NCBI RefSeq assembly: GCF_030345795.1
Contig: NZ_JAUALB010000001.1
Span: 1,917,001-1,981,000 of the forward strand
Direction: 5' to 3'
Length of the DNA stretch: 64,000 nucleotides
From: Micromonospora sp. WMMA1363
GTDB taxonomy: Bacteria > Actinomycetota > Actinomycetes > Mycobacteriales > Micromonosporaceae
Below the pieces are notes generated by a model. The model had not been told where the DNA came from and made no database searches. It worked only from the letters and a program-made list of their open reading frames with translations. Below are positions 1-58,100 of the stretch, one piece after another. The translations under genes were made by a program, and so were the position numbers. The first letter of the stretch is position 1. Each line of letters opens with the position of its first letter.

Positions 1-714
1 CGCACCGACGGCGGTGCGGATCCGCAAGGCTGATGGGTCTGCCGCGGCCCGTCCCTGGGCGGATCCGTACCGAGCCGCGTACCAGGCGGCAAGCGCGGCA
101 GGTGCCGCGCGGCGACGTCCAGCAGTGAGGGCGGCGACCATTGCCGTGCCGGCGAGGGTTGTCGCCGGCAGCGTCGGCCGGGCGCCGGTGATCTCACAGC
201 GAGACAGCACGGTGACGGTGTAGGTGTGCGCGGCGACCGTCAGCGCAGCCGGCAGCGCATCCCGTATGCGCCCGTTGACTGCCCCGAGCAACACGTCGAG
301 TCCTCGGCAGGTGGCCATCACTCCTGGTCCCGTGGGGCCGTTCTTGGCGCACAGGTTGTACGTCCAGACCGTCCCCATGAGCGGAAGCGCGACGCGCAGG
401 GCGCGTCTTCCGCCGGCCGCGGCGGCGGCCACAACGCCGGCCCCGGTGAGAGTGGCGGCGACGCCGGCGGCGTAGCGCGCGGAGACCCGCCCGGACGGGA
501 TCGGCCGCTCGGGTCTTTCGAGCGCGTCGGTTGCCCGGTCGGCCCAGTCGTTGCCCGCCATCCCAGCCCAGTAGAGGAGGACGGAAGCGCTCGCCAGACC
601 GGCGGTGCGCCAACTCAATACGCCGGCGGCCGCCGCGCCTGTCACCGCGTCACCCGGTACGGTCAGTGCGGCGGGCGCCCGTACCAGTTCGGCGAGGGCA
701 CGCAGGCTAGGCAT
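1..714 (-). CDS. UbiA-family prenyltransferase, partial (C-terminus beyond window)
   Basis: I translated this frame directly; it is open from an ATG at 714 to the window edge (238 codons). The N-terminal third has the UbiA signature NDWADRATD (first Asp-rich motif) followed by RPIPSGRV, the usual sequence after that motif. The protein is rich in Ala/Val hydrophobic stretches, as expected for a multi-pass membrane prenyltransferase. UbiA enzymes transfer an isoprenyl chain from a diphosphate donor to an acceptor at the membrane; the acceptor cannot be read here. Its ATG overlaps the end of the upstream inositol-phosphate-synthase-like gene by 8 bp (ATGCCTAG), so the two are almost certainly co-translated. 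Actinobacteria carry EboC-like UbiA proteins beside such synthases, which is the nearest context I know. The second Asp-rich motif would lie in the later part and was not identified. Confidence 0.85.
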   Translation of the reverse strand, partial: MPSLRALAELVRAPAALTVPGDAVTGAAAAGVLSWRTAGLASASVLLYWAGMAGNDWADRATDALERPERPIPSGRVSARYAAGVAATLTGAGVVAAAAAGGRRALRVALPLMGTVWTYNLCAKNGPTGPGVMATCRGLDVLLGAVNGRIRDALPAALTVAAHTYTVTVLSRCEITGARPTLPATTLAGTAMVAALTAGRRRAAPAALAAWYAARYGSAQGRAAADPSALRIRTAVGA

Positions 715-1846
715 CGCCGAGTCCCCGCACGAAACCGACGAGCGCTGCCCACTGGTCGGCGAGCGCGTGCGGCCCATCACCGAGTGGGTCCTTGAAGAAG
801 AATCCCAGCTCGGCCAGCGGCCCCGTACGCCCGATGGCGTGTGCGGCCGACGTCAACCGGGCCAGGTCGAGAACGAGTGGCGCGGCGAGCGCCGAGTCAC
901 AGCCGTGCCAGGTGAACTCCATCCGCATCGCCACGCCGAGGAAGCCGGTGAAGGTGACCAGGTCCCATGCGGTCTTGAAGTCACCCATGTCGTCGACGTA
1001 CTCGATCCGGGTACCGCCCTGCGGTTCGTACCCCAGTGTCTCGGCCAGCACCCGCTGTTTACTGCCGGCCTTCGCGGCGTTTGCCCCGGGCCTGGCCAGG
1101 TTCGCGCCGTCGCCGCCGCCGAGCAGGTTCGTCCCGGACCAGGTGCGTACCCACAGATGACGCATCGCGAACATCGGTGCCAACACCGACTTGACCAGGG
1201 TTTCGCCGGTCTTGCCGTCGTGCCCGGCATACGGCACCGAGTTTCGCTGGGCTAGTTCTTCCAGCGCCGGCAGCCGCGCTCCGGTTGAAGGAGTGAAATC
1301 GACATAGGAGCAGCCGGCGTGAAAGGCGGCGTACGCGTACAGCGAGCTGGGCGGCAGCACGGGGTGTGGGCTGTCCATGGCGTCCCGCAGGGCGTCGATG
1401 TTGGCATGGGCGGGATGCGGTTGCGGTGCCGCCTCGGTGGATGAGAGGTTCACCACGACTACGCGCTCAAGCCCGTGCCGTTCACCGAAACTGCGAATGT
1501 CCTGGGCTATGGCGTCGGCGGCCAGGCGTTGGGGCCCCACCGGCGGGGTGGGACGCAGTTCCCGCTCGACGGCGGCGATGTCCTCCGCGACGGCCGAGAC
1601 GACCGGCCCCGGCAGCACACCGGTGCTGGCCAGCGCCTCCGCCCTTTTTGCCAGCGGCGTCGTGGCTACGTCGTGACCGCCGAAGGTGAGGTCGTCGAGC
1701 GCGGGCACAGCCGTCGTCCGCAACTGCGGCAGCTCCAGCACGCATCCGGTGGGTTCGGCGAGACCGGAGCGCAACGCCACGGCTCCGACGATGCTCGTCA
1801 CCGCGACCGAACCCCGCGCGCCGACCAGCCAGACACCTGTCGCCAT
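707..1846 (-). CDS. myo-inositol-1-phosphate synthase family protein
   Basis: 379 aa. The start at 1846 is preceded by GGGGAG at good spacing and begins MATGVWLVGARGSVAVTS, a glycine-rich NAD-binding turn. Later family marks are GHDGKTGETLVKSVLAPMF (the catalytic-lysine region of inositol-phosphate synthases), DDMGDFKTAWD and a DSALAAPLVLDLA segment near the C-terminus. Classical members convert glucose 6-phosphate to inositol 1-phosphate by an internal NAD-dependent oxidation, aldol closure and reduction. This one is a divergent paralogue of the kind found in specialised gene clusters, so its substrate may differ. It is followed by an overlapping UbiA gene and faces a divergent methyltransferase/ThDP pair. 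The pairing with UbiA suggests a membrane-linked cyclitol or lipid product, which is inference. Confidence 0.85.
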   Translation of the reverse strand: MATGVWLVGARGSVAVTSIVGAVALRSGLAEPTGCVLELPQLRTTAVPALDDLTFGGHDVATTPLAKRAEALASTGVLPGPVVSAVAEDIAAVERELRPTPPVGPQRLAADAIAQDIRSFGERHGLERVVVVNLSSTEAAPQPHPAHANIDALRDAMDSPHPVLPPSSLYAYAAFHAGCSYVDFTPSTGARLPALEELAQRNSVPYAGHDGKTGETLVKSVLAPMFAMRHLWVRTWSGTNLLGGGDGANLARPGANAAKAGSKQRVLAETLGYEPQGGTRIEYVDDMGDFKTAWDLVTFTGFLGVAMRMEFTWHGCDSALAAPLVLDLARLTSAAHAIGRTGPLAELGFFFKDPLGDGPHALADQWAALVGFVRGLGDA

Positions 1847-2159
1847 AAGGCCACTCCCCACATCCTCAATCGATGTCACTCCTGGTGTACCGCGACTCCG
1901 ACGCCAGCCGACCGGGGACGGCCCGATGCGTCTCCCGAGGGGGTTTGTGGTGGCCGGTAGCGCCGAAGGCGGGTACTGGATCATTGTCGAGCAGAAGGGT
2001 GCGCCACCTTCTCGAAGAATGCGGATCTGATATCCCGCGCCGACCCGTGGGATGCGCTGGAGCTCGCGCATGCTGGTGAGCGCATTTGTGGAGATGCTCG
2101 GGCCGACTCTCCTGTTCAGGATGAGGTGCAGGGCTGATCACCGAAAGAGGAGGATGACC

Positions 2160-3200
2160 ATGGAACACTCGGCCAGGGCGCAGGAGGGAGACACCGCCTC
2201 GAACGGTGGCACGGTCGACGGCGCCGACCGGCGGGTGACTTCCATCTTCAATTCCGCCGTCGGCGCTTGGGCGATCGCCGCCGCGTGGGAGATCGGCATG
2301 CTCGATGAGCTCAAGACCACCAAGGAGGTGAACGCCGTCGAGTTCGCGGCCGCGCACGGGCTCGACGCGGCGTCGATGGTGGGTTTGTCCCGCGCGTTGG
2401 CGGCCGTCGAAGTGGTCGAGCGAGAGGGAACGGTAGTCAGGGTTTCCTCGAATTTCGACGAGACGTACCGGACGAAATCCTTTTTCCACTGGCTGGTCCG
2501 GGGCAGCGCGGAAATCTTCCGGCAAATGCCGCATTCCTTGATCAAGCGCAACCGGGTCGGCGCGTACTACCAGCGTGACTCCGCAGCCATCGCATACGCG
2601 TGCCGCGAGATCAACGAGCTGTGTTACGACAGCACGTTCTGGGCCGCCATCGCGCGGTTGGGGTACGACGTCGGGGTCGTGGCGGACCTCGGGTGTGGCA
2701 GCGGCGGCCGAGTGATCGACGTGCTCAACCGGTACCCGTCCGCCCGCGGTATCGGCGTCGACATCGCTCGGCCGGCGCTAGAAAACGCCCGTCTCGACGC
2801 CGCGACGGCTGGCCTAGCCAAGCGGACCACGTTCCTCGAGGCGGACGTCCTCGACTTGCAGCCGCGCCCCGAATTCGCCGATGTCGACCTGGTGACCTGC
2901 TTCATGATGGGCCACGACTTCTGGCCGAAAGATCGGTGTGTGGCGACCCTGCGCCGGCTACGAGAGTGCTTCCCGGCGGCACGCCGTTTACTCCTCGGCG
3001 ACGCTACCCGCGTGGAAGGAGTCGCGGACACCGATCTGCCGATCTTCGTTCTCGGGTTCGAACTGGGCCACGACCTGATGGATATCACCCTCCCCACCAT
3101 CGCCGAGTGGGAAGGGGTCTTCGAAGAAGGCGGTTGGCACCTGGTCCGCACCAACCGGATCGAGATGACCGTAGGTGAGGTCATCTTCGAGCTGGCCTGA
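2160..3200 (+). CDS. MppJ-like SAM-dependent 2-keto acid C-methyltransferase
   Basis: 346 aa. I chose ATG 2160 over 2154 because GGAGG at 2149-2153 is then 6 bp away. Residues 24-95 form the N-terminal dimerisation/winged-helix part; the SAM fold follows with motif I VADLGCGSG (about 174-182). From memory it matches MppJ of the mannopeptimycin cluster over long stretches: FFHWL, YYQRD, YACREI, TCFMMGHDFWP, LLLGDATR, FEEGGW. MppJ methylates the beta carbon of phenylpyruvate and uses a ferric ion to hold the substrate. The His/Asp of GHDFW (252-253) and His304 of ELGHDL are the matching candidate metal ligands and are conserved here. The product would be a beta-methyl 2-keto acid that an aminotransferase turns into a beta-methyl amino acid. 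The next gene begins 41 bp downstream. The exact keto acid cannot be read. Confidence 0.88.
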   Translation: MEHSARAQEGDTASNGGTVDGADRRVTSIFNSAVGAWAIAAAWEIGMLDELKTTKEVNAVEFAAAHGLDAASMVGLSRALAAVEVVEREGTVVRVSSNFDETYRTKSFFHWLVRGSAEIFRQMPHSLIKRNRVGAYYQRDSAAIAYACREINELCYDSTFWAAIARLGYDVGVVADLGCGSGGRVIDVLNRYPSARGIGVDIARPALENARLDAATAGLAKRTTFLEADVLDLQPRPEFADVDLVTCFMMGHDFWPKDRCVATLRRLRECFPAARRLLLGDATRVEGVADTDLPIFVLGFELGHDLMDITLPTIAEWEGVFEEGGWHLVRTNRIEMTVGEVIFELA

Positions 3201-3241
3201 CTACGGCAGCGGATAGGCGACGACGGAAGAGGAGGGCGGCG

Positions 3242-4879
3242 ATGGCGGTACTGGCGACGGCGGTTGGCCGGACGCTGGCGGACCTCGGTGTCCGCCATGC
3301 CTTCGGTGTGGTCGGTGGTGGGAACATCCTGCTCACCGCGGGGCTCACCGGCGCGGGCATCTCGTACGTGCCCGCCCGCCACGAGGGAGGGGCGATGGCG
3401 ATGGCCGACGCCTACCACCGGACCACCGGACAAGTCGCGATCTGCACCACGTCACACGGCCCCGGGTTGACCAACATCGCAACCGCTCTCACCGAGGCGA
3501 CCAAGCACGGCAGCGGCGCCCTGGTGATCTGCGGTGACGCGCCGTCGCTCGGCCTACGCTCACACGACATCGACCAACCGGCGTTCGTCGGATCGATTCC
3601 GGCACCAGTGCTTCGGACCGCGGATCGCGCGACCGCACTCCGGACGACCGTGGACGCACTCGACCTCGCACGAACGACGTCTCGGCCCGTCGTGTTGTGC
3701 GTACCCAACGACATGGTCTCGGCTGAGGTATCCGGGCAGGCGCCGGTCATCTATCCCGCGGCGTCCAGCGTGGTGCCCGTGGTCCCCGCTGACCTCGACG
3801 CCGTTCTCGACGCCCTCGCCAAGGCGCGTTGTCCGTTGCTGCTCGCCGGTTTGGGTGCCTGGCGCAGCGGTGCCGGCAAGGTCCTCGTCGAGTTGGGCGA
3901 ACGAATCGGGGCGCTCTACGCGACCACCACCATGGCCAGTGGCCTTTTTGCCGGCAGCCGCTGGTCGCTCGGCGTTTTCGGGGGATTCGCAGCACCGCGT
4001 GCGGCAGCGATCATCGGTAGCGCCGACCTGGTGATCGCATTCGGTGCCAGCCTCGACGCGTTCACCCTTCACCACGACAAGCTACTGCACCCGGACGCAG
4101 TGCTCGCCCAGATCGACCTGGCGGATGACCGCGCCATCGACCGGGTCAGCCTCTCCGTCACTGCCGACGCATCCGCCGCCGCAGAAGCACTGCTCAACGC
4201 GGTGAACGCACGTGGGCTGCCCCCATCGACGTGGCGCGACGAGCTGGCTGACGCCATCGCTCGCGCAGGTTGGGAGCACGAGAGCTACGACGACGCGGGA
4301 ACCGACAGTCGGATCGACCCACGGACGCTGACCGCAGCGCTCGCCGGCGTGTTGCCGCAGGAACGTACCGTCGTCCTGGACGGGGGTCACTTCATCGAAT
4401 GGCCGTCACGGTACCTGCCGGTCCCGGAGCCTTCCGCGATGGTATTCATGGGTGCCGCGTTCCAAACCATCGGGCTGGGATTCGCGGGGGCGGTCGGTGC
4501 GGCCGTGGGCCGCCCTGACCGGCTGACCGTCGCCGCGCTCGGCGACGGCGGCGCCCTGATGGGCCTGCCCGAACTGGAAACGCTCGTCCGAACTGGGGCA
4601 TCCGCGCTCGTCGTCGTGTATGACGACGCGGCCTATGGTTTCGAGGTCCACATGTACGGACCCAAGGGTGCCGACCTTCGTACCGCGGCCTTCGGCGACA
4701 CCGACTTCGCCGGTATCGCCCGGTCGCTGGGTGCCACCGCCGTCACCGTACGGAGGATCGCCGACCTTTGGATCGTTCGCACCTGGCTGGCCAGGGGATG
4801 CCCGGGAACACTGTTCCTCGACTGCAAGGTCGTCCCTCAGGTTGTGGCGCGTTTCCTGTCTGACCTCATCGCGGGCTAG
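3242..4879 (+). CDS. thiamine-diphosphate-dependent enzyme, acetolactate synthase/decarboxylase type
   Basis: 545 aa with a GAGGAGGG ribosome site. The N-terminal pyrimidine-binding domain carries RHEGGA, where Glu48 is the conserved glutamate that activates ThDP. A central domain follows, and the C-terminal diphosphate-binding domain has GDGGALMG and then YDDAAYGFE, a variant of the usual GDG...NN metal motif. Such enzymes decarboxylate 2-keto acids or join two carbonyl compounds (acyloin formation). The gene sits 41 bp behind the MppJ-like methyltransferase, in the same direction. A natural reading is that both act on the same 2-keto acid: methylation at C3, then decarboxylation or carboligation. 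That reading is inference, and the overall sequence does not let me name a specific enzyme. Confidence 0.85.
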   Translation: MAVLATAVGRTLADLGVRHAFGVVGGGNILLTAGLTGAGISYVPARHEGGAMAMADAYHRTTGQVAICTTSHGPGLTNIATALTEATKHGSGALVICGDAPSLGLRSHDIDQPAFVGSIPAPVLRTADRATALRTTVDALDLARTTSRPVVLCVPNDMVSAEVSGQAPVIYPAASSVVPVVPADLDAVLDALAKARCPLLLAGLGAWRSGAGKVLVELGERIGALYATTTMASGLFAGSRWSLGVFGGFAAPRAAAIIGSADLVIAFGASLDAFTLHHDKLLHPDAVLAQIDLADDRAIDRVSLSVTADASAAAEALLNAVNARGLPPSTWRDELADAIARAGWEHESYDDAGTDSRIDPRTLTAALAGVLPQERTVVLDGGHFIEWPSRYLPVPEPSAMVFMGAAFQTIGLGFAGAVGAAVGRPDRLTVAALGDGGALMGLPELETLVRTGASALVVVYDDAAYGFEVHMYGPKGADLRTAAFGDTDFAGIARSLGATAVTVRRIADLWIVRTWLARGCPGTLFLDCKVVPQVVARFLSDLIAG

Positions 4880-6416: not shown

Positions 6417-8027
6417 TCAGCTGCACCCCTTTCCGCCGCGTTTACTCGGCAGTCGGTAAGCGACGATCTCCGCACGCTCCTCGGCGCTCTGCGGCCAGCC
6501 GCTGGCCGACAGGAGAATGTCGCCGCTGATCACGACGGGGGAATTCGTGGACCCCGGCAGCTTCACCCGCCAGGCGAGACGGCCGTTCTTGGCGTTGAAG
6601 GCGTGGATCGTTCCGTCGAAGGTAGTCGTGAAGACGAGGTCGTTGGAAATCGTCGTCCCGCCGTAGGGGGACTGGTCTAGCGAGAATGTCCACCTCGCCC
6701 TTCCCGTCGCCAGGTCCAGCGCCACGACGGCACCACTGCCAGCGCTGAACGACGGGAAGATCGGTGGCGGCAGCTGAGAGGTCCAGGTGGCGCTTAAATC
6801 ATTGACTGCGACGTATACGGTGTCGCGGTCGACGGCACCGGGTGCCGGGACGCCGCCGAGTACGCCGGGGTACAACTCCGCCGGGAAGCTCGGCAGTTCG
6901 TCGAACCGGCCCGCCATCGCCAGCAGGTTGTCGTCGTCGTGGCCGTTGTGCCGTCCCACCGGGGTCTTCCAGAGCCGCTTTCCGCTGTCACGGTCGTACA
7001 TGTACACGAAGCCGGTCTTGCCAGACGTGAGCACGACGCGCCGGCCGCCCACAGTGGTGAGGATCGGCGAATTCTGCAGATCCCAGTCGTAGATGTCGTG
7101 CGGCAGTTCCTGGCGATACCAGATCAACCGCCCCGTCCGGCCATCGAGCTTGACGATCGAATTGGTATAGAGGTTGGGGCCAGGCCGGCTCGACCCCCAC
7201 GGATACTCCTCCGTGCCGAGGAACGGCCCGGGATTCGACACGGCGAGGTAGAGGTCGCCGCGTTCATCGAAGCTCGGCGGATACCAGGCACCGCCTCCAG
7301 AGTTGATCTCCGGGTGCCCCCACAGGTCACGCGGCACGGTGTCCCAGGTCCAGCGCGTGGCGCCGGTACGGGCGTCGATCGCCCAAACCACGCCGACCGC
7401 GCCGGCGCCGAAACCACCATGGAGGAGGCTCGGCACGGTGGCGATGTACACAGTGTTGTTGTTGACGCCGGGCGCCATGTCGATGCCCTCGTTGGCGTTA
7501 CGAGTGATCTTACGTCGCCACAACTCCCGGCCGGTGCGCGCGTCGAGCGCGAACACGTCGGTCAGTGTCGCGCCGAACACCCGACCTCCGCTCACCGCCA
7601 CGCCGTTGGGCCCATTGGTGTAGGAGCCCATCATCACTGTCCAAACCTCGCGCCCCGTACGTACGTCGATGGCGTAGACATTGGAGTCGAGGTCCTGGCT
7701 ATACATGACTCCGTCAACCACGATCGGGTTCGTGGCGTAGCTGCCGGGCCAGCGGTCCGTCGGAGCCTTGATCGGGACGGTCCAGGCGACCTCGAGATCG
7801 GCCACGTTGGTCGAGTCGATCGGCCCGCGCACCCGTCGGGTGTTGTGCCGGTCGGCATTGGGATGCTCCCAGCTGCCACGCGAGCCGCACCGGTGGTCAG
7901 CGGATGAGGTGAGCGCTGGCTCAGGTTGGGCGGCGGACGGCCCGGTGCCGGCGAGCACGATCGCCGCCACCGCGCCGCAGGCCGTCAGGCGGACGGCAGT
8001 CCTGCTGGACGACGGTTTCAGCCGCAT
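6417..8027 (-). CDS. secreted PQQ-type beta-propeller protein
   Basis: 536 aa, start at 8027 with GAGGGGA upstream. The first 35 residues form a signal peptide: positive n-region (MRLKPSSSRTAVR), hydrophobic core and an AxA-like cleavage site near PSAAQ. The rest is built of repeated blades with the pattern AIDVRTGREVW, ALDARTGRELW, AIDARTGATRW, KLDGRTGRLIWY, DRDSGKRLW and ALDLATGRARW, the hallmark of quinoprotein dehydrogenase-like propellers. Relatives include PQQ-dependent alcohol and polyvinyl-alcohol dehydrogenases. Catalytic residues and PQQ binding were not verified, so it may be only a structural propeller. Expected location is outside the cell. No operon partner is visible. Confidence 0.85.
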   Translation of the reverse strand: MRLKPSSSRTAVRLTACGAVAAIVLAGTGPSAAQPEPALTSSADHRCGSRGSWEHPNADRHNTRRVRGPIDSTNVADLEVAWTVPIKAPTDRWPGSYATNPIVVDGVMYSQDLDSNVYAIDVRTGREVWTVMMGSYTNGPNGVAVSGGRVFGATLTDVFALDARTGRELWRRKITRNANEGIDMAPGVNNNTVYIATVPSLLHGGFGAGAVGVVWAIDARTGATRWTWDTVPRDLWGHPEINSGGGAWYPPSFDERGDLYLAVSNPGPFLGTEEYPWGSSRPGPNLYTNSIVKLDGRTGRLIWYRQELPHDIYDWDLQNSPILTTVGGRRVVLTSGKTGFVYMYDRDSGKRLWKTPVGRHNGHDDDNLLAMAGRFDELPSFPAELYPGVLGGVPAPGAVDRDTVYVAVNDLSATWTSQLPPPIFPSFSAGSGAVVALDLATGRARWTFSLDQSPYGGTTISNDLVFTTTFDGTIHAFNAKNGRLAWRVKLPGSTNSPVVISGDILLSASGWPQSAEERAEIVAYRLPSKRGGKGCS

Positions 8028-8806
8028 GGACGTCCCCTCTTCATTGTCGTGCGCCAATTGGTCGGACATTGCGCACCGGACGCTACCGCCGCCACAGACA
8101 CCGGATTCTTCTGCAGTGCGAATGCGGGCAGGTTTGGGCCGTTGGCCGCCTCACCGATCAGCGAGTCTGCCACGACGCCCACACGGCACGCAGTCCGTCG
8201 AGCCGGCACCCGAGCATGATCACCGAGCGCCTCCAAGCTGATCTTGCAACTCAGGGCGACCGCGGCAGTCCCGCTGATCGATGGATGCGAGACTCCGGGT
8301 AGGACAGCGGTCGGCCAAGACTCGAAGCCCCGACCGGGAGCCTAGCCATGCTGCCCTGCCCCGCTACGATCCCGATGTCCAGTCGAACCCTGAGCCAGCT
8401 CGCCGACCGCATGGCAGCGGCTGCCGCTGCTGGGCTGCCGCCGCCCTCCCACCAGGGCATGGTCAGGACCACATCGGCAGCCACGCCGACATCCGGACGT
8501 GCCGCAGTCCGACCGGAGCCATCACCTTCCGTAGCCGCGTCTTGCAGACACGGACGTTCTGCTTTGTCGATGAGCGGAAACCGTCAAGCCCGATGACGAA
8601 GATCGTAGGGGCGGATCACTCGGACCGTGGGATCGGCACTCCCGGGCGTTCGTAGTCGATCGGTCAAAAGGAAATCGGGCAAGGCAAACCCGGCCGCGTG
8701 CTCGCGCTCAACGTCGATGCGCCCGGCTTCGGCAGCCGGAAAGGACGGCGACCAGTGGCGAACACGTGATGGCGGTTCTCAGGGCGGCCTGAATGCACGT
8801 GGCGGA
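8028..8806. other. 779-bp gap, no gene recognised
   Basis: Several overlapping open frames of 70-125 codons exist on both strands, but none has a ribosome site, a family motif or natural amino-acid composition. It holds the promoter of the beta-propeller gene at its left edge. A decayed gene cannot be excluded. Confidence 0.5.
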
Positions 8807-10113: not shown

Positions 10114-10404
10114 CCAGGGCCCCGGAGTAGTCCGGGAATGTCCGCTTGATCATGGGATGCTGTGGAGGTTGAGGGCGGCTGTGGGCGTGGTGTGAGCGCG
10201 GCGGGCGCTGGCGGTGTTGATCCAGCCGGTGAGGCGGAAGGTGCCGCGGATGATGTCGCGGAGGGTGGCCATGACGGCGGGGGTGTTGTGGGCGCGGACC
10301 TGGCTGGCGTCCTCGGCGAAGGTGACGTCTCTGATCCAGTGCGTAGGGTCGGCCGCATGGCGAGGTGCCTGTTGGGCAGGTCCTTTTCCATGCGGCCTCC
10401 CTCC

Positions 10405-10439
10405 GAACCGGACATGATAGTTTCCTGATCATCCGGCTC
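10405..10439 (-). ncRNA. group II intron domain V
   Basis: The catalytic hairpin reads GAGCCGGATGATCAGGAAAC and then closes with a CATGTCCGGTTC arm, matching the conserved bacterial domain V shape. It is followed directly by domain VI. Confidence 0.88.
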
Positions 10440-10462
10440 TCCAGTGACTGCTGCGTGAGCGT

Positions 10463-12229
10463 TCAGGCCGACTGCCAGCCCTGGATGCGGTCGTAGCATG
10501 AGCCGCAGACCACGAGGGACTTGCGGCGTCGTCGTGCCATGAGCTGCATCCAGTCGGGCTGTGCGTCTCCGGTTCTGGCGAGGTCAGCGAGTTTTCGGAC
10601 GTGGTGAACCTGAATGTTGTCCGTCTGCTTGCAGATCTCGCACGTGTTCGCCAGGAGCCTGCTGATCAGCTCCTTGTGCGGGTAACTCACCTGGAGCGGC
10701 CGACGGTCGGAGATGACCGCCGTTTTCTGTCGCTTGAGTGGAATGCCCCCGAACCGTGCTACCAGTGGTTGCCTGCCGTCGCGTTCGATGCGTGCCTCGA
10801 AGCAGGTGCGCAACCCGTGCGGTGTTTCGATCTTGGCTTTGTGTCGGGCCGCCATCTTCGACACCGTCGAGTGGTGCTTGCCTGCGAGGGTCTTGAGCAT
10901 GGAGGTCTTCATGACCCATTCGAGGCGGTGCAGCCGGTGAACGTCACCGGCCAGCAGGTAGTACTGGACGATGCCCCGATACTCGGCCCCGAACGTGGCG
11001 ATGATTGGGTGATCATCGTTGTGGATCAGGGCACCCCGGTGGGCGGGTTTGCCGCTTGCGAGGTAACGGGAGCACTTGGCCTTGATCACGTCCTTGGGCA
11101 CGCGCAGCCCGATCGCCGCGTTCGCCGAACGGCGGCCACGGACGATCCTGCGGCTGTCGTGCTGGATGGTGATGTCGTAGCCGAGGAACCGCGCCGCGCT
11201 GGAGCGGGCGTGGGTGATCAGCGTCTTCTCGTGCGACAGTTCCAGCTTGAGTTCGTCTCGCAGGAACGCCGCGAGTCGCTGCTTGATCTCCTCAGCTTCG
11301 GCCTTCGGTCCGGTGAACCCGAGTAGGTGATCATCTGCGTAGCGGCAGTAGCGCAGCCTCCGGTACTCCGGATCGTCAGGATCGGAACTGGGCAGGGTGC
11401 GCATCCGTTTGAGCAGCGTCCGGGCCTCGGCTCGGTCGCCGCGTCGACGGGCCGTCGCCAGCAGGTTGGCCACCTCAAGGTAGGCCGGGTTACGTGCCCG
11501 GCGTCCCCCTCGGGTGTACTCGGGAATCAGAACCTTCTCGACGAAGACGTCCAGCTTGTGCAGGTAGAGGTTGGACAGGATCGGGCTGGCGACCCCACCC
11601 TGCGGCGCGCCGGACAGCGTGGCGCCCCATCTCCAGTCCTCCAGGTATCCGGCGGTGAGCATGTTGCGCACCAGCCGCAGGAACCGGTTGTCGTGGATCT
11701 TCTCCGCCAGGATCGAGATCAAGATCTCGTGATCGAGACTCCCGAAACAGTCGGCGATGTCTCCCTCGATGAACCAGGCCGTTCCGGTCCAGGTGTTGGC
11801 CACCTCCCGCAACGCGGTATGGCAGCCCCGGCCGGGACGAAATCCGTGGGACCGGTCGGAGAACTGGGGCTCGTAGTAGGCCTCCAACAGCAGGCGCACC
11901 ACTTCGCCGACCAGCTTGTCTGACCAGGTAGGCAGGCCGAGGGGCCTGAGCTTGCCGCCCTTCTTCGAGATCATGACCCTGCGCACCGGACGGAACCGGT
12001 AACGCTCGTGGCGCATCGCCTCGATGATGCGGCCGATCTTGCCCAGCGACATGCCGTCCACGGTCTCCTGGGTGACCCCGGGCGTCATCGCACCCTTGTT
12101 GGCGTAGATGCGTCCGTAGGCCAGCAGATACAACTGCGGGTTGAACATCTGTCGATACAGTTCTTCCAGCGGCAGGCCACGCCTGCCGCGCTCACGCAGG
12201 ACACCCAGCACCGTTTCGGCGCTCTGCAT
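10463..12229 (-). CDS. ltrA: group II intron reverse transcriptase/maturase with HNH endonuclease
   Basis: 588 aa from ATG 12229, which has GGGAGG upstream. The RT core contains HGFRPGRGCHTAL, GDIADCFGSLDHE, SGAPQGGVASPILSN and the polymerase motif YADD (297-300), with two extra insertions between motifs. The maturase (X) region follows. The C-terminus has a zinc-ribbon HNH nuclease: CEIC, IQVHHVRKL and VCGSC. It would bind its own intron RNA, help it splice and copy it into DNA at the target. The whole frame is open, so this is the best candidate for an active retroelement in the window. Confidence 0.92.
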   Translation of the reverse strand: MQSAETVLGVLRERGRRGLPLEELYRQMFNPQLYLLAYGRIYANKGAMTPGVTQETVDGMSLGKIGRIIEAMRHERYRFRPVRRVMISKKGGKLRPLGLPTWSDKLVGEVVRLLLEAYYEPQFSDRSHGFRPGRGCHTALREVANTWTGTAWFIEGDIADCFGSLDHEILISILAEKIHDNRFLRLVRNMLTAGYLEDWRWGATLSGAPQGGVASPILSNLYLHKLDVFVEKVLIPEYTRGGRRARNPAYLEVANLLATARRRGDRAEARTLLKRMRTLPSSDPDDPEYRRLRYCRYADDHLLGFTGPKAEAEEIKQRLAAFLRDELKLELSHEKTLITHARSSAARFLGYDITIQHDSRRIVRGRRSANAAIGLRVPKDVIKAKCSRYLASGKPAHRGALIHNDDHPIIATFGAEYRGIVQYYLLAGDVHRLHRLEWVMKTSMLKTLAGKHHSTVSKMAARHKAKIETPHGLRTCFEARIERDGRQPLVARFGGIPLKRQKTAVISDRRPLQVSYPHKELISRLLANTCEICKQTDNIQVHHVRKLADLARTGDAQPDWMQLMARRRRKSLVVCGSCYDRIQGWQSA

Positions 12230-14027
12230 TACGCATACCTCCCAGTTCTGTGGTGTCCGATCACCTGGCCCCCTTCGCCCGTGCGGACGGCTTTCCCGTC
12301 CTCCCTGGCCGGTCGTGACTCCGGCGACTACTACGGGGCCTCCGTCGCCATAGGGCTCGCGCCCGTTAGGCGATCCCACGTTCGTCCTCGTCGTACGTGA
12401 CAGCGTGACGTAGGCGTCCCACTCATCTCCTTAAATGCCCTCGTTGGGCATCGCCCAGCGCCCGGAGGTTGCACCAGCCCCGTAGATACATGCCGGTGCA
12501 GAGCGCGGCGTCGGCTTCGAGCGTGGTGCCGACGGAGTCGAAATCTGCCTCGCTGGAGATTGGGCTTCAGGCAATTCAGCTTTCGCCATATCACGCGGGT
12601 CTCCCACCGCACCGCTCCTCACGCTTGGACACGGCCGATGGTTTGCTGGCATGCTCTGATCCCCTTCGCCTTTCGGCATCCGGGTAAGCCATCAGACCCA
12701 GAGATGTCCCTCCAATCTCTCCCGGCTGAGCCGGGAATACAGACGAGGCGTTGCGTGGCGCACACGCTGTTCTCGATGGTCCAGTGTTCGCGGGCCCAGG
12801 CGGCGATCTCCTCGGGTCGGGCTTGGTGGGTGGGGAGGTCGGTGATCGCGTAGACCACTTCGCTGGTCGACCTCTTCGTGCCCAGCGGGCGGCGTCTGCG
12901 GCGGATCCGCACGACTTGACGGGCGTGGGGGAATACCAGGTCATCGACGGTGACGACCTGAACCTCGCGGATCTCGGCGCGGCCGTGGCCGCGACTGCTC
13001 TGGCGATGCAGGACCGGCACCTGCTTCCAGGGCAGGCGCCGCAGCTGCGCGGCGAGTGTGGGCTGATTGTCTTTGACGGTGAACAGGTAGTGGGCGTGGC
13101 GCTGCTGCACGAGGTAGACGGCGTGGGGCGCGTTGGGCGTGCATGGCATCCGCGGTGATCACCGTGTCGGTCAGGTCGGCCGCGGCGATCTGGTCCAGCA
13201 GGGGCGCGAACTCACCGATTTCGTTGGTCTTCGCGGTGATCTCGCGGGCGGCGAGGGTGACCGCGTCGGTATGACGCACGGCGGACAGGATGAACACGCG
13301 ACTGCCGTCGGGCCGTTTGGCCCCGCGTAGACATTTACCGTCCACCGCGACGGCGGCGCGGCGCGGCCGGTCAGCGGGGGCGGCACGGTGAGCGCGACGC
13401 TGTTCCCGCTCGGGCACACCATCCGGAGTCACCGCGGCGGTCGCGGACCGGGCCAGCGCGGCCAGGTGCCCGTACCCGACGCCGGTCAGCACGCCCGGAT
13501 CAACCCTGGCGTAGGCGTCACGCAGGGTCCGCTCGTCAGGAACCCGGTACCGGCCGGTCAACGGGTTGAACGGGCAACCCAGCCGGGCCAGTTCCCGCTG
13601 TTCACAGCGTCGGACCCACTCCGCGATCGCGGTCAGCGAGTTGTGGCCGGCCGCGCTCATCGCGCACACCCCGATCGCCAGCAACGTCGCCAACCGGTAC
13701 CGCACACCACGAGGATCACGAGGGTCGGCGACCTGCGCCAACCGGTCCAGCAAGCCCGCAGACGGTGAATCGGCACCGATGGCGGCAGCCGCGGCGTGCC
13801 CCGCCCCGGCGATGAGCGATGATGACACAGCGAGCACGACACCCTTGGTGAGTCTTGAAGCGTAGACAACTTCATGATCCACAGGTGTCGTGCTCGCTCC
13901 TCATCCGGTCACGTCCCTCAGGACAACGTCAGGCCAAAAGGGACATTCGCGGACTACTCCGGGGCCCTGGCCGTCATGCCGGCCCCGGGTTCCAGGATGC
14001 CGTCCGGTGACCTTGCGCGCAGGTCAC

Positions 14028-16073
<2,046 letters not shown>

Positions 16074-16077
<4 letters not shown>

Positions 16078-16475
16078 GGTGTCGGCTCGCTCCCGCTGTG
16101 CTGGCTGTCGGTCGCGAGTTGCCCCAACAGCGCGGAGAGTTTTCCCTGCACCTCGATCACCTTGCGGGCCTTGTCCAACTCGGCGCGCAGCCGCTCGTTG
16201 TCTGCCCGCAACCGGGCTGCCTCCAGCACCGCCGGATCGGTCTTCGGCCGCCCGGCCGGCTTGGCCAGGGCCTCGCGGGCGCCGGCGTCACGCTGATGCT
16301 TCCACGCCGCGAGCAGCGACGTGTACAGGCCTTCCCGACGAAGCAGGGCGCCCTTGCCGGCCTTATCGAGGGTCTCGTACTCGGCCAGGATCCGCGCCTT
16401 GTACGCGGCGGTGTATGTCCTTGTTCGGGGCTTTGCTGGTACCTCGGGGTCGGGCACCGGGTGATGCGATGTCAC
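16074..16475 (-). CDS. IS3 transposase OrfA (copy 1)
   Basis: 133 aa helix-turn-helix subunit ([20 protein letters not shown], then [19 protein letters not shown]) followed by a leucine-zipper-like helix ([20 protein letters not shown]). It is translated just before OrfB and overlaps it by 4 bp. Confidence 0.88.
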
Positions 16476-46223: not shown

Positions 46224-47243
46224 TCAGGGGTTCGTTGACTGAGTCGTGGTGTCCTCGGGCTTGTTGATCCACGCGGTGGTGGGCAGGGCGGGTGGTTGCG
46301 GGATGCCGCGGACGAATCGTTCGGGGTTGCGGGTGTAGGCGGCGGTCAGGACGTCGGCGCGGACATCGCGGACCTGCCGGGCGTGGCCGTGGTGGACGTC
46401 GTGTGGGGTGTGCCAGCCGATGCCGGAGTGCCGGTGGATGGTGTTGTACCAGGTGAAGAAGGCGCGGCAGTGAGCTCGGGCGTCCTGGACGCTGCCGAAG
46501 CGGTCGGGGAAGTCGGGCCGGTACTTCAGGGTCTTGAACTGGGCCTCGGAGAACGGGTTGTCGTTGCTGCACCTGGGCCGGGAGTGGGACTTGGTCACGC
46601 CGAGGTCGGCCATCATCTGCGCGACCGTCTTGGACGCCATTGAGGTGCCGCGGTCGGCGTGGATGGTCAACTGCTCACGCGCGACGCCCTGCTTGGTGAT
46701 CGCGTCGGACAGCAGCCGTTCGGCCAGGGCGGCGTCCTCGCGCTCGGCGAGCAGCCACGCGACGGTGTAACGGCTGTAGATGTCGATCACGCTGTAGAGG
46801 TGGTAGAAGTCCCGCTTGGCCGGGCCGCGCAGCTTGGTGATGTCCCACGACCACACGCGATTGGGGGCGTCGGCGATCAGTTCGGGCTTGACCTTCGGCG
46901 GGTGCACCGCGTGACGGCGGCGCTCCCTGACTTCGCCGTGGGCACGCAGGATCCGGTACATGCTCGACACCGACGCCACGTACACGCCCTCGTCGAGGAG
47001 GGTGTGGTAGACGGCCGCGGGGGCCATGTCGGCGAAGTCCGGGCTGTTGAGCAACGCCCGGACGCTGTCACGCTCGGCCGCGCTCAGGGCACGTGGCTGC
47101 GGCCTGGGTTCACGCCCCGGCCGCGGTGGCGCAGGCGTCTGGCGGTGCCGGCGGTAATGGTTGGCCTGCGGCCGGCCGGTGGCTCGGCACGCCGCCCGGA
47201 TGCCGATCAGCGGCGTCAGTTCGGTGATCGCAGCGTCGATCAT
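46224..47243 (-). CDS. IS3 transposase OrfB (copy 2)
   Basis: 339 aa, identical to the OrfB of copy 1, with the intact DDE residues described there. Confidence 0.9.
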
Positions 47244-47641
47244 GGTGTCGGCTCGCTCCCGCTGTGCTGGCTGTCGGTCGCGAGTTGCCCCAACAGCGCG
47301 GAGAGTTTTCCCTGCACCTCGATCACCTTGCGGGCCTTGTCCAACTCGGCGCGCAGCCGCTCGTTGTCTGCCCGCAACCGGGCTGCCTCCAGCACCGCCG
47401 GATCGGTCTTCGGCCGCCCGGCCGGCTTGGCCAGGGCCTCGCGGGCGCCGGCGTCACGCTGATGCTTCCACGCCGCGAGCAGCGACGTGTACAGGCCTTC
47501 CCGACGAAGCAGGGCGCCCTTGCCGGCCTTATCGAGGGTCTCGTACTCGGCCAGGATCCGCGCCTTGTACGCGGCGGTGTATGTCCTTGTTCGGGGCTTT
47601 GCTGGTACCTCGGGGTCGGGCACCGGGTGATGCGATGTCAC
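47240..47641 (-). CDS. IS3 transposase OrfA (copy 2)
   Basis: 133 aa, identical to the OrfA of copy 1; it overlaps OrfB by 4 bp. Confidence 0.88.
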
Positions 47642-53168: not shown

Positions 53169-55100
53169 TCAGTCGGCGGTACTGCGGACCTTGACCTGGG
53201 CAGTCTGGAATTCCGGGGTTTCCGTGAGCTCCGCGATCGTGGGATACATGAAGAGCGACGGGACCGCGATGTCGACTCCGAGTTCGTTATTGAGCGCGGA
53301 GATCAGCTGGATCACCAGAATGCTGTTGAGCCCCAGTCCGAACAGGTCGTCCTCGACGCCGATGGTGGCGGGCTCCAGGCCGATGATGCCCGCGACGATC
53401 TCCTGGACCCTGCCCTCGAGCGCGGTACGCGGCGCGACGCCGTCGGAGTCGACGCCGGACCGCAGTGCATGCAGCGCCTTGACGTCCAGTTTGCCGTTGA
53501 CGGTCATCGGGACCACATCCACGTGGACGAGCTCGGTCGGCACCATGTAGGACGGCAGCGCCGCTCCCATATGGCGCAGCAGCTCGTCGACGTTCACCTG
53601 TTCAGCGGCGACATAGAAGCCGACCAGGGAGGTCACCTCAGCTGTGGGCTCCCCGTGCCTCCCGGCCTGCGCGGGGAGCACGGCGCTCTGCGTCACCCCC
53701 GGATACGCGTTCAAGGTGGCCTCGATCTCGGCGGGTTCCACCCGGAAGCCGCGGACCTTGATCTGCGAGTCGTTCCGGCCGACGTACTCCAGCGCCCCGT
53801 CGGACCTCCGGCGCGCGAGATCCCCGGTGCGGTAGAGCCGCGCGTTGCGCCCGTCCGGACCCCAGGCGGCGTCGGCCTTCTCCGCTCCGCTCTGGAAGGG
53901 GTTCGGGACGAACCTCTCCGCGGTGAGCTCGGGCATGTTGAGATAGCCGCGGGCCAGCCCGGGGCCGCCCAGGAAGACCTCTCCGACGGCACCGACCGGG
54001 ACGATGCGCCGCGCTTCGTCGAGGATCAGCACCAACGAGTTGCTCTGCGGCCGGCCAATCGCCAGGTCGTACTCCCGGGCCGCGTGCGAGGTCGTCGAGA
54101 TCGTGGCCTCGGTCGGCCCGTACTCGTTGAACACCGGGACCTTGTTGACGCGCGTCATCTCCCGGAAGCACGCGGCGTCGAGCGCCTCGCCGCCGATCAC
54201 CATGCGCTTGAGGCTCGGCACCTCGCCGAGCCTGATGTGCTTGTAGAAGGTCGGCGTGCCGTTCATGTGGGTGACGCCATTGCCGCGCAGGTACTCGGTG
54301 AACTTCTCCGCTTCGAGCCACAGCTGGTCGGGGACGTGCAGCAGCGAGTTCCCGGTCAGCAGGGCGAGCACCATTGGCACGACGCCGCCGTCGAACGCGT
54401 AGTTGAGAACCTGCAGCATCACCTCCTGGCCCGGCTCTCCGGCGAAGTCGTAGAGGTCGCTGATGACGCACACGTGATTGACCACCGAGCGGTTCTCGAT
54501 CATCACGCCCTTGGGCTTGCCGGTCGTGCCCGAGGTGTAGATGACGTAGGCCAGACTTCCGGCGTCCGCGCCCGTCTCCGTCGGTGCCGCGGCCCCGCCC
54601 GCACGCACGGCCCGACCCCACAGGCCGTCCACCGCGCGGACGGCCGTGCCGGCTGCCGCGATCCGCTCCATCCGTTCCTGGTGCGCGCTGCCGCAGAGCA
54701 CGACCGGTGCAGCTGTGTCATCGAGCATGTAGCGCACCCGCTCGTCCGGCGTCTCGGGGTCGATCGGCACGTAGGCGGCACCGGCCTTCCAGACCGCGAT
54801 GATGGCGACGGTCATCTCGATGCCGCGGTTGAGGCCGAGCGCCACCAGCTGACCGGGCCCCGTTCCGTGGGCCGCGATCAGCTCGCCGGCCAGCCGATCC
54901 GACCATTCGTCGAGCTCCCGGTACGTCAGTGAGGAACCGTCGAAGACCACCGCGCGGACGTCCGGCGACGCCGCCGCCCGCTCGCGGAACACCTGGGCGA
55001 TGGTGGCCTCCGCCGGGAAGGACAGCTCCGGCCCCTTGCTCTCGTGGAGAAGCCGCTGCTGCTCGTCGTCCGGCAAGAGGTTCAGATCGGCCAGCTTCAT
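53169..55100 (-). CDS. NRPS adenylation-thiolation protein
   Basis: 643 aa. ATG 55100 overlaps the stop of the large NRPS (ATGA), giving translational coupling. Adenylation domain: LTYRELDEWSDRLAGELIA, core A3 LAYVIYTSGTTGKPKGVMIE, A5 VFNEYGPTEATIS, A7 LYRTGDLARRR, A8 NDSQIKVRGFRVEPAEIE, A10 NGKLDVKAL. The carrier domain follows with DDLFGLGLNSILVIQL (Ser is the phosphopantetheine site; LGLNS replaces the usual LGGxS). By aligning to PheA I read the pocket as D-G-V-N-V-G-E-I-S-K, which matches no code I remember. It has no condensation domain of its own; the large protein ends with a free one, so this is the second half of a split module. No thioesterase follows. Confidence 0.92.
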   Translation of the reverse strand: MKLADLNLLPDDEQQRLLHESKGPELSFPAEATIAQVFRERAAASPDVRAVVFDGSSLTYRELDEWSDRLAGELIAAHGTGPGQLVALGLNRGIEMTVAIIAVWKAGAAYVPIDPETPDERVRYMLDDTAAPVVLCGSAHQERMERIAAAGTAVRAVDGLWGRAVRAGGAAAPTETGADAGSLAYVIYTSGTTGKPKGVMIENRSVVNHVCVISDLYDFAGEPGQEVMLQVLNYAFDGGVVPMVLALLTGNSLLHVPDQLWLEAEKFTEYLRGNGVTHMNGTPTFYKHIRLGEVPSLKRMVIGGEALDAACFREMTRVNKVPVFNEYGPTEATISTTSHAAREYDLAIGRPQSNSLVLILDEARRIVPVGAVGEVFLGGPGLARGYLNMPELTAERFVPNPFQSGAEKADAAWGPDGRNARLYRTGDLARRRSDGALEYVGRNDSQIKVRGFRVEPAEIEATLNAYPGVTQSAVLPAQAGRHGEPTAEVTSLVGFYVAAEQVNVDELLRHMGAALPSYMVPTELVHVDVVPMTVNGKLDVKALHALRSGVDSDGVAPRTALEGRVQEIVAGIIGLEPATIGVEDDLFGLGLNSILVIQLISALNNELGVDIAVPSLFMYPTIAELTETPEFQTAQVKVRSTAD

Positions 55101-58100
55101 TTCGTCCTCGCAAACTGCATCAGGATGGATCGGTAGGTGGACGCGAAACGCTCCACGGTGCCGTGATCGAACAGGGCTGTGGCATAGGTGATGGTTCCGG
55201 TCATCGACTCGCCCGCGTCGTTCAGGACCAGGCCGAAGTCGAGGTTGGCGTTGATGGTCGACCCGCCGTCGGGAGTGTGTCCCTCGAGTGCGTGGGTTCG
55301 CAACAGCGCGGCGGGAGACGGCTCGTGTCCGGCGAGCCGGTCCGCGTCGGTCTCGGCGAACGAATTGACGTCGAACCAGATCTGGAATAGAGGGTGCCGG
55401 GCGGAGTCGACGGAAAGATCCAGCTCCGCGACGAGGCGCTCGAAGGGCAACTCCTGGTGCTCCTGAGCTTCGACCACGCGCGCGCCGACCTTTTTGATCA
55501 GCATGTCCACGTCGTCGTCGCCGTCGATGTCGAAGTCGAGCGCCAGGGAATTGGTGAAGCAACCGATGAGCTCGTGAGTCTGGACGTGTGTCCGGTTGGC
55601 CACCGGGATGCCGACGAGCAGGTCGGAACGGCCGGTGTATGCCCGGAGCGTCAGGAGGAAGGCGGCGAGTAGCACGCTGAAGACTCCGACCCCGCTCTCG
55701 TGTGCCAGCCGTCGAGCCGCCGCCGACGTTTCAGGGTCCAGCTCGAACGACACGCCGTCGCCGCTGTAGTCGATCTTGGCTGGCCGGATCCGGTCGGTGG
55801 GCAGTTCCACCGGTCGTCGACCGTGCAGGCGGCCCTTCCAGTACCCGAGCAGCTCCGCCAGCCGGGTGCCGCCGATGTGCTCCCGTTCCCAGGCCGCGTA
55901 GTCCTTGTACTGAATGGACGGTTCTGGCAGCTCCTCCGCCTGGTAGAGCCGGCTCAGCTCGTCCAGCAGGATGTCGGCTGACCAACCGTCGAACGCGATG
56001 TGATGGACGACGATGCCGACGAAGGTACGGCTCGGCGAGCCCTCGGCAGCCTCCTGCCGGTAGATGGCGACCCGCAGCGGCGCCTCATTCGCGAGGTCGA
56101 ACTGGTGCATACCCTCGGCGCCGAAGCGCGCGGCCAGGTCGGCCTCACCCGTCACGGTGATGTGCCGGACGTCGAGTGGCGTCGTCTCGTGGTCCAGCAC
56201 TACCTGGTGAAGCCGGCCGTTGGGCGCCCGGCGGATGACCGTCCGCAGCACCTCGTGACGTCGGCCCACTTCGCTGAGGCACCGCTCGAGCACATCCACG
56301 TCGACGCCGGGCAGGACCTCGTAGCAGAGTTGGATGTTGTACCCGAGGTTTCCGCTCTCGTACTGGTCGATGAACCAGAACCGCTCCTGCGCAAACGACG
56401 CCACCTGCTCGGTCTCCGCACGTGCCTCGAGCCGCGGGATGGCGACGGCTTCCCGCTGCGAAGTCCCCAGACCGCCGACCAGGCCCGCCACAGACCGGCG
56501 CCGGAAGATCGACGCGATGCTGACGTACGTGCCGAGTTCGGCGCTCAACCGGCTCGCCAGCTTGATCGACAGGATGCTGTTGCCGCCGAGCTGGAAGAAA
56601 TCGTCGTGCACGCCGATCGCCTCGGGGTCGACGCCGAGCACCTCCGCCAGGATCCTGCGGGCCAGGGCCTCACGCGCGTCATGCGGACCGACCAACTCGC
56701 GGGCCAGGCTCAGCTGCGGCGAGGGAAGAGCCTTGACGTCGAGCTTCCCACTGATCTTGCGTGGCAGTTCGTCCACTTGAACCAGCGCCGCGGGGATCAT
56801 GTAGGTCGGCAGCTTCGCCTCCAACTGCTCGAACAACGGCTCGGAACCCATGTCGGCCTCGGCGACGTAGTAGCCGACCAGATGGGTGTGTCCGCCGCCG
56901 TCGCCGGTCCTGCGCACCACGACAGCGCTCTGGAGCACGCCCGGCACGTCGGCCAGAACCGCCTCGATCTCCCCCAGCTCGATCCGGTGACCGCGGATCT
57001 TGACCTGCAGGTCGTTGCGACCGACGAAGCGCAGCGTCTGGTTCGGCGCCCAACGCACCAGGTCGCCGCTCTTGTACAGACGGTTGTTCCACTCCGGGTC
57101 GGATCCGGTGGCGAAGGGGTTGGCGACGAACTTGCGGGCCGTCAAGTCCGGCTGATTGAGCAGTTCGGCGGCCAACCCCGCACCGCCGATGTACAGCTCA
57201 CCGACCGCGCCCATCGGCAGCAGCCGCAGCTGCGCGTCGAGCACGTACCCGGCGACGTCCGGGATCAGCGAGCCGATGTCGGTCGAACCCTCATCCGTCT
57301 CGGTGTAGAGCTTGTAGCAGGTGAAAACCGTGGTCTCCGTCGTGCCATAGCCCATGGCGAGCTGTGGACGGTCGTGGCTGTATCGCTCGAACCACTTGGT
57401 CAGTAGCGACACGTTGAGCGCCTCGCCGCCGAGGAAGACGTACCGCAGGTCGTCCAGACGGTCTCCGTCGTCCTTGCCGAGCGCGACATTGACGAACTGG
57501 TAGAACGCGGTGGCGGTCTGGCAGAGCATGGTGACGCGCTCGGCGCGGCACAGCGCGTAGTACAGCTCCGGGTCGCGCGTCTGCTCGAACGTCGGCACCA
57601 CCAGACGGCCGCCGTACAGGAAGGCGCCCCACATCTCCCAGACCGTGAAGTCGAAGACGTAGTTGTGGAACAGTGCCCACACATCGTTCTCGCGGATGTC
57701 GTAGACACCCTCGAGCGCCGCGAACAGGCGGGCCACATTGGCGTGGGTCTGCGGCACGCCCTTCGGCCTGCCGGTGGTGCCCGAGGTGTACAGAACGTAG
57801 GCGAGATCCCCCGGAGCGACTCTCACGACCGGGTCCGTGTCCGGCATGGCGCCCAGCACCTCCCGCGCACGCGGGTCGTCGACGGCGATCACGTCGACGT
57901 CCTCCGGCCGCGAAATCAGCCCCTCCATCGTGGCCCGGGCCAGGATGCCGGTGATTCGCTCCACATATCGACTGTGGGTCACGATCGTGTGCGCACCCGC
58001 GTCGGCGAGCATGAAGCCGATGCGGTCGTCGGGATAGGTGGGGTCGACCGGAAGGTAGGCGCCGCCCGCCTTGAGTGTGGCCAGGATTGAAACGACGATG

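Follow-up and report, generated by a model that had tools for sequence, protein, structure and literature searches.

A conserved methyltransferase–thiamine diphosphate enzyme gene pair in actinomycete enediyne clusters, with a proposed role in early side-unit assembly

The 64 000-nucleotide stretch of Micromonospora sp. WMMA1363 analysed here (the window; C1:1917001-1981000 of its own genome G000, assembly GCF_030345795.1, contig NZ_JAUALB010000001.1) carries near its start two adjacent genes on the forward strand. The first, P0001 (2160..3200, +; 346 aa), is a putative MppJ-type α-keto acid C3-methyltransferase, so annotated from its identity to MppJ, its metal-binding residues and the matches of its predicted model; its open reading frame (ORF) begins with ATG at 2160 and stops at 3200, with a ribosome-binding-site-like AGAGGAGG just upstream. 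The second, P0002 (3242..4879, +; 545 aa), encodes a thiamine diphosphate (ThDP)-dependent enzyme of the acetolactate/HKA-synthase type, a probable carboligase by its TPP N, M and C domains, conserved residues and fold neighbours; its ORF runs from ATG at 3242 to a stop at 4879, and is likewise preceded by a ribosome-binding-site-like GGAGGGCGG. The 41-bp spacing given in the initial annotation is confirmed by the coordinates of the intergenic gap (3201..3241, +), which holds a ribosome-binding-site-like GGAGGG ahead of the ThDP gene. From this arrangement the two genes are probably read on one transcript.

P0001 (METHYLTRANSFERASE) has as its best solved relative MppJ, the phenylpyruvate C3-methyltransferase of the mannopeptimycin pathway, over residues 21–345 (E 8.9e-110), with 167 of the 325 aligned residues identical (51%). 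The GHDFW and (L/F)GHD(L/M) motifs align between the two proteins, and His252, Asp253 and His304 of P0001 stand opposite His263, Asp264 and His315 of the 4kib chain, positions which we take to be the iron ligands of MppJ (His243, Asp244 and His295 in native numbering). The triad is kept in all 62 family rows, MppJ included, and in 21 of 21 rows of the branch that holds the paired methyltransferases (see below). The long stretches shared with MppJ and the motif histidines, on which the initial annotation had relied, therefore bear scrutiny. An AlphaFold model of P0001 (pLDDT 91.1), built on 33 rows (alignment A2, hand-picked from the 61 rows of the tree), matches MppJ chains at ranks 1–15, SgvM and MrsA at ranks 16–24 and O-methyltransferases from rank 25. 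A grouping with O-methyltransferases had been set beforehand as the outcome that would speak against an MppJ-like function; both sequence and fold instead lie nearer to MppJ, the methyltransferase trees themselves containing no O-methyltransferases. P0001 is not an MppJ orthologue, since in the tree MppJ groups with loci L065, L053, L054, L059 and L079, outside the pair branch. Against the NCBIfam model TIGR04543 (2-ketoarginine methyltransferase, MrsA) P0001 reaches 72.5 bits, below the cut-off of 425, whereas it is half identical to MppJ, and we rejected 2-ketoarginine as its substrate. It is very likely that P0001 is an MppJ-type keto-acid C-methyltransferase, with MppJ's type of reaction the likely one. 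Our best guess for the substrate is 4-hydroxyphenylpyruvate, because a prephenate dehydrogenase-family gene lies upstream of the methyltransferase, not always adjoining it, in 4 of the 20 other pair loci (L028, L031, L033 and L036; the L028 copy was confirmed by a family scan).

All three TPP-enzyme domains (N, M and C) are present in P0002. In the alignment of ThDP partners (A1, 18 of 21 rows, L030 and L031 being cut at contig ends and L036 frame-shifted), Glu48, the catalytic glutamate, and GDGG at 434–437, the GDG metal motif, are invariant in 18 of 18. P0002 exceeds no curated equivalog cut-off among the best 25 of 54 families (at best 190 bits against 509) and, falling below each of those listed, therefore appears to form a subfamily of its own. 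A profile of the 18 partners matches first 2-hydroxyacyl-CoA lyase (HACL), BbmA, acetolactate synthases (ALS) and pyruvate oxidase, and the predicted model of P0002 (pLDDT 83.9) matches plant acetohydroxyacid synthase (AHAS), the 'ThDP-dependent HKA synthases' CsmA and BbmA, JanthE and HACL. No pyruvate, phenylpyruvate, indolepyruvate or benzoylformate decarboxylase occurs among the best 60 of 134 sequences or the best 50 folds, and oxalyl-CoA decarboxylases stand low among the same 60 sequence matches. The initial annotation had allowed either decarboxylation of the methylated keto acid or its joining to a second carbonyl. As P0002 comes closest to AHAS, HKA synthases, JanthE and HACL in sequence and fold, joining is favoured and plain decarboxylation disfavoured; judged by these sequence and model neighbours, P0002 is likely to perform a ligation.

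A scan of genome contigs with P0001 returned 63 methyltransferase loci, and at 20 of these (L021-L036, L038, L048, L056 and L077) a ThDP gene lies directly downstream on the same strand, the two genes being an estimated -4 to 127 bp apart. By their tree labels the paired loci belong to the Micromonosporaceae, Streptosporangiaceae, Pseudonocardiaceae, Streptomycetaceae and Thermomonosporaceae. In a 392-genome sample of the genus of strain CB02009 (G361, locus L028), six genomes carry a ThDP orthologue (E up to 1e-130), with the methyltransferase beside it in 6/6; four of the six (G361, G362, G368 and G369) were already among the 20 pair loci. Sought in other genomes, as the initial annotation had proposed, the pair is thus conserved. 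Within the window's own genus, ThDP orthologues occur in 2 of 160 genomes, G000 (100%) and G316 (85%), the latter being Salinispora mooreana (locus L021). In a maximum-likelihood tree of the methyltransferases, from which L080 and L082 (partial) and L083 (without a full match) were left out, a single branch separates the 21 paired enzymes, the window's included, from all others (support 97/85). The pair label, set by gene adjacency before the tree was built, requires one change, compared with a mean of 17.6 when shuffled and 0 of 500 shuffles as low; the shuffles test clustering only, and near-copies favour clustering.

More distant ThDP relatives were rejected as evidence for the pair: within the window's genus, 49 of the 160 genomes have a match at E up to 1e-60, of which only G000 and S. 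mooreana hold orthologues. For 10 of the other 47 genomes the ThDP locus was fetched (45–47% identity), and no such methyltransferase lies within those stretches. These loci (L086-L095) carry a related ThDP subfamily, 45–47% identical to P0002, in a different two-gene module, where the ORF beside the ThDP gene is presumably a cyclase in 5 of the 6 loci with called genes. In a sample of the family, an MppJ-like gene (E up to 1e-30) is present in 15 of 300 genomes; of these, G000 and G158 (L001 and L005) alone show a ThDP partner inside the short stretch around the gene. The ThDP gene of L036 (11084-12721) is frame-shifted in the Streptomyces diastatochromogenes assembly, which may be a sequencing artefact, because aromatic-lyase matches in the same genome are also partly in pieces. 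No paper on the methyltransferase–ThDP pair appeared among the listed matches in open-licence PMC full text, a coverage that excludes subscription papers and supplements.

The initial annotation treated the pair as a stand-alone route. We are instead highly confident that it belongs to enediyne gene clusters equipped with an SgcC-type hydroxylase, an adenylation–peptidyl carrier protein (A-PCP) and a condensation protein. The surroundings of the pair were compared in 21 stretches, namely the initial 25 kb of the window and 20 loci flanked by at most 10 kb per side. Its most frequent companions are an HpaB-type hydroxylase (16/21), an FAD monooxygenase (14/21), HsaA-like flavin enzymes (eight) and an SgcJ/EcaC-like protein (six), and some of the pair loci also have A-PCP and condensation proteins. 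At genome level, an SgcC-type HpaB gene, at its best place at least 72% identical to the L023 HpaB, is present in 18/18 searched pair genomes (a set without those of L034 and L035) and in the window's own genome, versus 1 of the 12 genomes that lack an adjacent pair. The best solved relative of the window genome's HpaB is 4oo2 (890 bits), which we take to be SgcC of C-1027. DUF1702, which like UnbV proteins we presume to be a member of the enediyne cassette, occurs in 17/17 searched pair genomes (here without those of L024, L030, L034 and L035) versus 3/12 others. The ThDP and DUF1702 genes lie on one contig, 19–48 kb apart, in 9 of the 16 pair genomes with both placed; this search returned no match for G373, nor for the pair genomes G363 and G367, in which the ThDP gene is cut or broken.

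The cassette itself can be seen on the contig of strain CB02009 that carries the pair, which holds DUF1702, an UnbV protein, a KS-AT-KR-DH polyketide synthase (PKS; ORF of 2220 aa, matches including DynE8) and a thioesterase with 4i4j (1.5e-77), CalE7 and DynE7 as best solved relatives. Homologues of all four genes are found in S. mooreana, G358 (thioesterase cut by the stretch end) and G000. Saccharomonospora piscinae (G379), first placed among the genomes without the pair, in fact carries a cluster that unites enediyne genes with the ThDP gene and a methyltransferase (L066), the two pair genes being non-adjacent; three of its four cassette genes were found, the PKS not being inside the fetched stretch. 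All five clusters tabulated (G000 in three stretches, S. mooreana, CB02009, G358 and S. piscinae) contain the methyltransferase, the ThDP enzyme, HpaB, two HsaA-like enzymes, the SgcJ-like protein, FAD monooxygenase, condensation and A-PCP proteins, DUF1702, UnbV, thioesterase, DUF5987, a GMC oxidoreductase and CMD proteins; the stretch from G358 lacks the P450 U43. A 2016 survey, in the excerpts available, defines the enediyne PKS cassette as E3/E4/E5/E/E10 (PMC5181780); pair-bearing clusters supply PKS, DUF1702, UnbV and thioesterase, with no family-model match for E5. In the same excerpts, CB02009 and CB02400, both pair strains, are listed as predicted producers of 9-membered enediynes that also have apoprotein genes, and several clusters are said to carry genes for unknown side-units (PMC5181780).

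In the window's own genome, eight peripheral genes lie at C1:1873647-1900347, 17–43 kb upstream of the window: HpaB, HsaA-like 1, SgcJ-like, FAD monooxygenase, P450, HsaA-like 2, the condensation protein (with an MbtH stretch) and A-PCP (C1:1898542-1900347). Lying outside the window, they were out of view for the initial annotation. It is in this genome that several observations weigh against a simple enediyne assignment. No cassette stands beside the pair, the cassette lying at C1:1389-1412 kb and the pair at 1919-1922 kb, approximately 0.5 Mb apart, and between G000 and S. mooreana the eight peripheral genes are 81–94% identical, the PKS only 68%. The enediyne link in the window's genome therefore rests on homology, and because its cassette is so distant and far more diverged than the peripheral genes, the cluster may have been split or its core replaced. 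Further points on the same side come from other genomes. DUF1702 is also found in G373 and G380, both without an adjacent pair, and in 6 of the 16 pair genomes ThDP and DUF1702 genes are on different contigs. The S. piscinae methyltransferase and ThDP gene lie 34 kb apart within their cluster, so adjacency is not essential, and L066 sits in a sister branch outside the pair branch; adding it to the pair group raises the changes on the tree from 1 to 2, and a single clade is rejected (approximately unbiased test, p 0.014). This placement may reflect two recruitments of the methyltransferase, or its replacement. As for the chemistry, no prephenate dehydrogenase-family gene lies within the stretches fetched for G000, S. 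mooreana, G358 and S. piscinae, so that 4-hydroxyphenylpyruvate is a guess in these four, and the sequence leaves the donor and acceptor of P0002 unfixed, its neighbours also including pyruvate oxidases, lyases and oxalyl-CoA decarboxylases.

We postulate that the pair opens the assembly of an aromatic enediyne side-unit by catalysing its first two reactions, and assign the route as a whole a probability of roughly 0.4–0.5. In this proposal, whose reactions, substrates and step order we infer, P0001 would use iron and S-adenosylmethionine to methylate C3 of 4-hydroxyphenylpyruvate, and P0002 would then join the methylated keto acid to a second small molecule. The resulting acid would be activated by the A-PCP protein, whose pocket is without the aspartate that grips α-amino groups. 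The SgcC-type flavin enzyme would hydroxylate the carrier-bound phenol, which might be oxidised further by other flavin enzymes and a P450, and the free-standing condensation protein would attach the finished unit to the enediyne core. The proposed activation step draws on the adenylation (A) domains. In α-amino-acid A domains Asp235 grips the α-amino group. At this position (presumably PheA numbering; read by eye from the FxxxxxE motif) the A-PCP proteins have Gly in 7/8, Ser in 1/8 and Asp in 0/8, while an ordinary nonribosomal peptide synthetase (NRPS) A domain at the same locus (L023_0) has Asp (FDVSIFE). Asp235 being missing, the acid handled by the A-PCP is therefore probably one without an α-amino group. 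To our knowledge, the predicted building block occurs in no solved enediyne.

The principal competing explanation is that the pair makes one side-unit and the hydroxylase, A-PCP and condensation proteins serve another, a C-1027-like β-tyrosine, which we consider unlikely, if the most serious of the alternatives. An SgcC-type hydroxylase together with a condensation protein is typical of the C-1027 β-tyrosine branch, and the 4-methylideneimidazole-5-one (MIO) lyases that such a branch might draw on match more than once in 11 of the 18 genomes examined. The other 7 of 18 have a single match, and in six of the genomes with an HpaB gene (G000, G358, G368, G369, G370 and G379) this single match falls in the best-scoring group (595–616 bits), presumably histidine ammonia-lyase. 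The absence of Asp235 from 8/8 A domains also speaks against this explanation. Strain CB02009 favours this explanation: an MIO-lyase gene lies on the same contig as the pair, and the excerpts of the 2016 survey assign the strain a β-amino acid, listing it with β-amino acid and benzoxazolinate genes (PMC5181780). The hydroxylase and A domain of that cluster could thus serve the β-amino acid unit, which counts against our proposal there.

Less probable still is that P0002 is a plain decarboxylase, converting β-methyl-4-hydroxyphenylpyruvate to 2-(4-hydroxyphenyl)propanal for later oxidation or amination into a side-unit. A 5-guanidino-2-oxopentanoate decarboxylase is among its weak NCBIfam relatives (175 bits, cut-off 500), and decarboxylation is the first half of a ligation as well as of plain decarboxylation. 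However, the best 60 of 134 sequences and best 50 folds contain no plain 2-keto acid decarboxylase and are dominated by ALS/AHAS, HKA synthase, JanthE, HACL and pyruvate oxidase, and an aldehyde product offers the A domain no carboxylate to activate. We give least credence to a purely local explanation, in which the pair in G000 serves its UbiA-like and inositol-phosphate-synthase-like neighbours or is the orphan of a broken cluster. These two genes do stand between the pair and the A-PCP gene in G000 and S. mooreana, and the G000 enediyne PKS cassette is far from the pair; but neither gene is within the stretch at the other 19 pair loci, S. mooreana has pair and enediyne cluster within approximately 65 kb, and G000 keeps one enediyne PKS cassette. 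We retain the side-unit route, begun by methylation and ligation, as the preferred interpretation.

The pair begins approximately 2 kb inside the window, after the two genes just mentioned. The SCO3242-family UbiA-like gene (1..780, -), related to EboC (NF045897, 292.6 bits, cut-off 260), and the myo-inositol-phosphate-synthase-like gene (707..2071, -) are found beside the pair only in G000 and S. mooreana and are probably not part of the cluster; we take them to be members of an Ebo-like operon, of which only these two were scanned. A PQQ-propeller-like protein (6417..8069, -) is a possible cluster member, being kept in the enediyne clusters of S. mooreana (88% identical) and S. piscinae (65–67%); the stretches fetched from CB02009 and G358 showed no copy. 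Elsewhere in the window, a group II intron (RF00029 at 10343-10441) with a reverse transcriptase/maturase occupies 10343-12379 (-). Two ARAGORN 'tRNA-Ala' calls (15988-16081 and 47154-47247), of equal length and with the same anticodon position, sit at the 5' ends of two 339-aa ORFs (15058-16077 and 46224-47243, both -), and are probably false calls within a repeated element. Large NRPS genes at 53169-64000 (-) apparently belong to another cluster, which continues past the window end.

Few natural agents cleave DNA as potently as enediynes do. The methyltransferase–ThDP pair provides a compact marker for one enediyne family with an unknown side-unit, and gives a testable first step for that unit. 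If the proposal is true, keto-acid methylation and ThDP ligation would join the reactions by which enediyne side-units are built, and the pair would represent a matched set of enzymes for branched tertiary alcohols with two neighbouring stereocentres. Structures are known for few enediynes, 11 by the count in the excerpts of the 2016 survey (PMC5181780). That the side-unit would then be the first β-methylated acyloin-type unit among enediynes is a tentative claim, to which we give slightly less than even odds.

Among known systems, MppJ is the closest parallel to P0001, with the same fold, the same His-Asp-His residues and the 51% identity given above, although it lies on another branch of the tree. 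The two differ in the partner enzyme: MppJ feeds an aminotransferase that leads to β-methylphenylalanine, whereas P0001 is accompanied by a ThDP enzyme. On the ThDP side, the HKA synthases CsmA and BbmA (PDB 8x3z and 8x3x) count among the closest matches of P0002 in both fold and sequence, at 22–23% identity, and we know of no methyltransferase link for either. SgvM and MrsA, the next folds after MppJ, catalyse keto-acid C3-methylation like that predicted for P0001, but are only 17–23% identical to it and act on ketoleucine and ketoarginine, according to their entry titles; with GlmT and MarI they are grouped as keto-acid C-methyltransferases in PMC10502145. For the proposed ligation, a putative parallel is the carbazole ThDP enzyme (CqsB3/NzsH), which joins indolepyruvate and pyruvate to an acid and is followed by a KASIII-like enzyme and then a cyclase (PMC7466098). 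A carbazole-type route with a dedicated methyltransferase was considered and rejected: the main text of that review has 0 instances of 'methyltransfer', and the step is carried out by the KASIII-like CqsB1 (PMC7466098). Finally, clusters of the C-1027 type share with the pair clusters the enediyne PKS, UnbV protein, thioesterase, SgcC-type hydroxylase and adenylation and condensation proteins; the pair clusters are set apart by the methyltransferase–ThDP pair, present instead of, or besides, an aminomutase, and by an A domain without Asp235.

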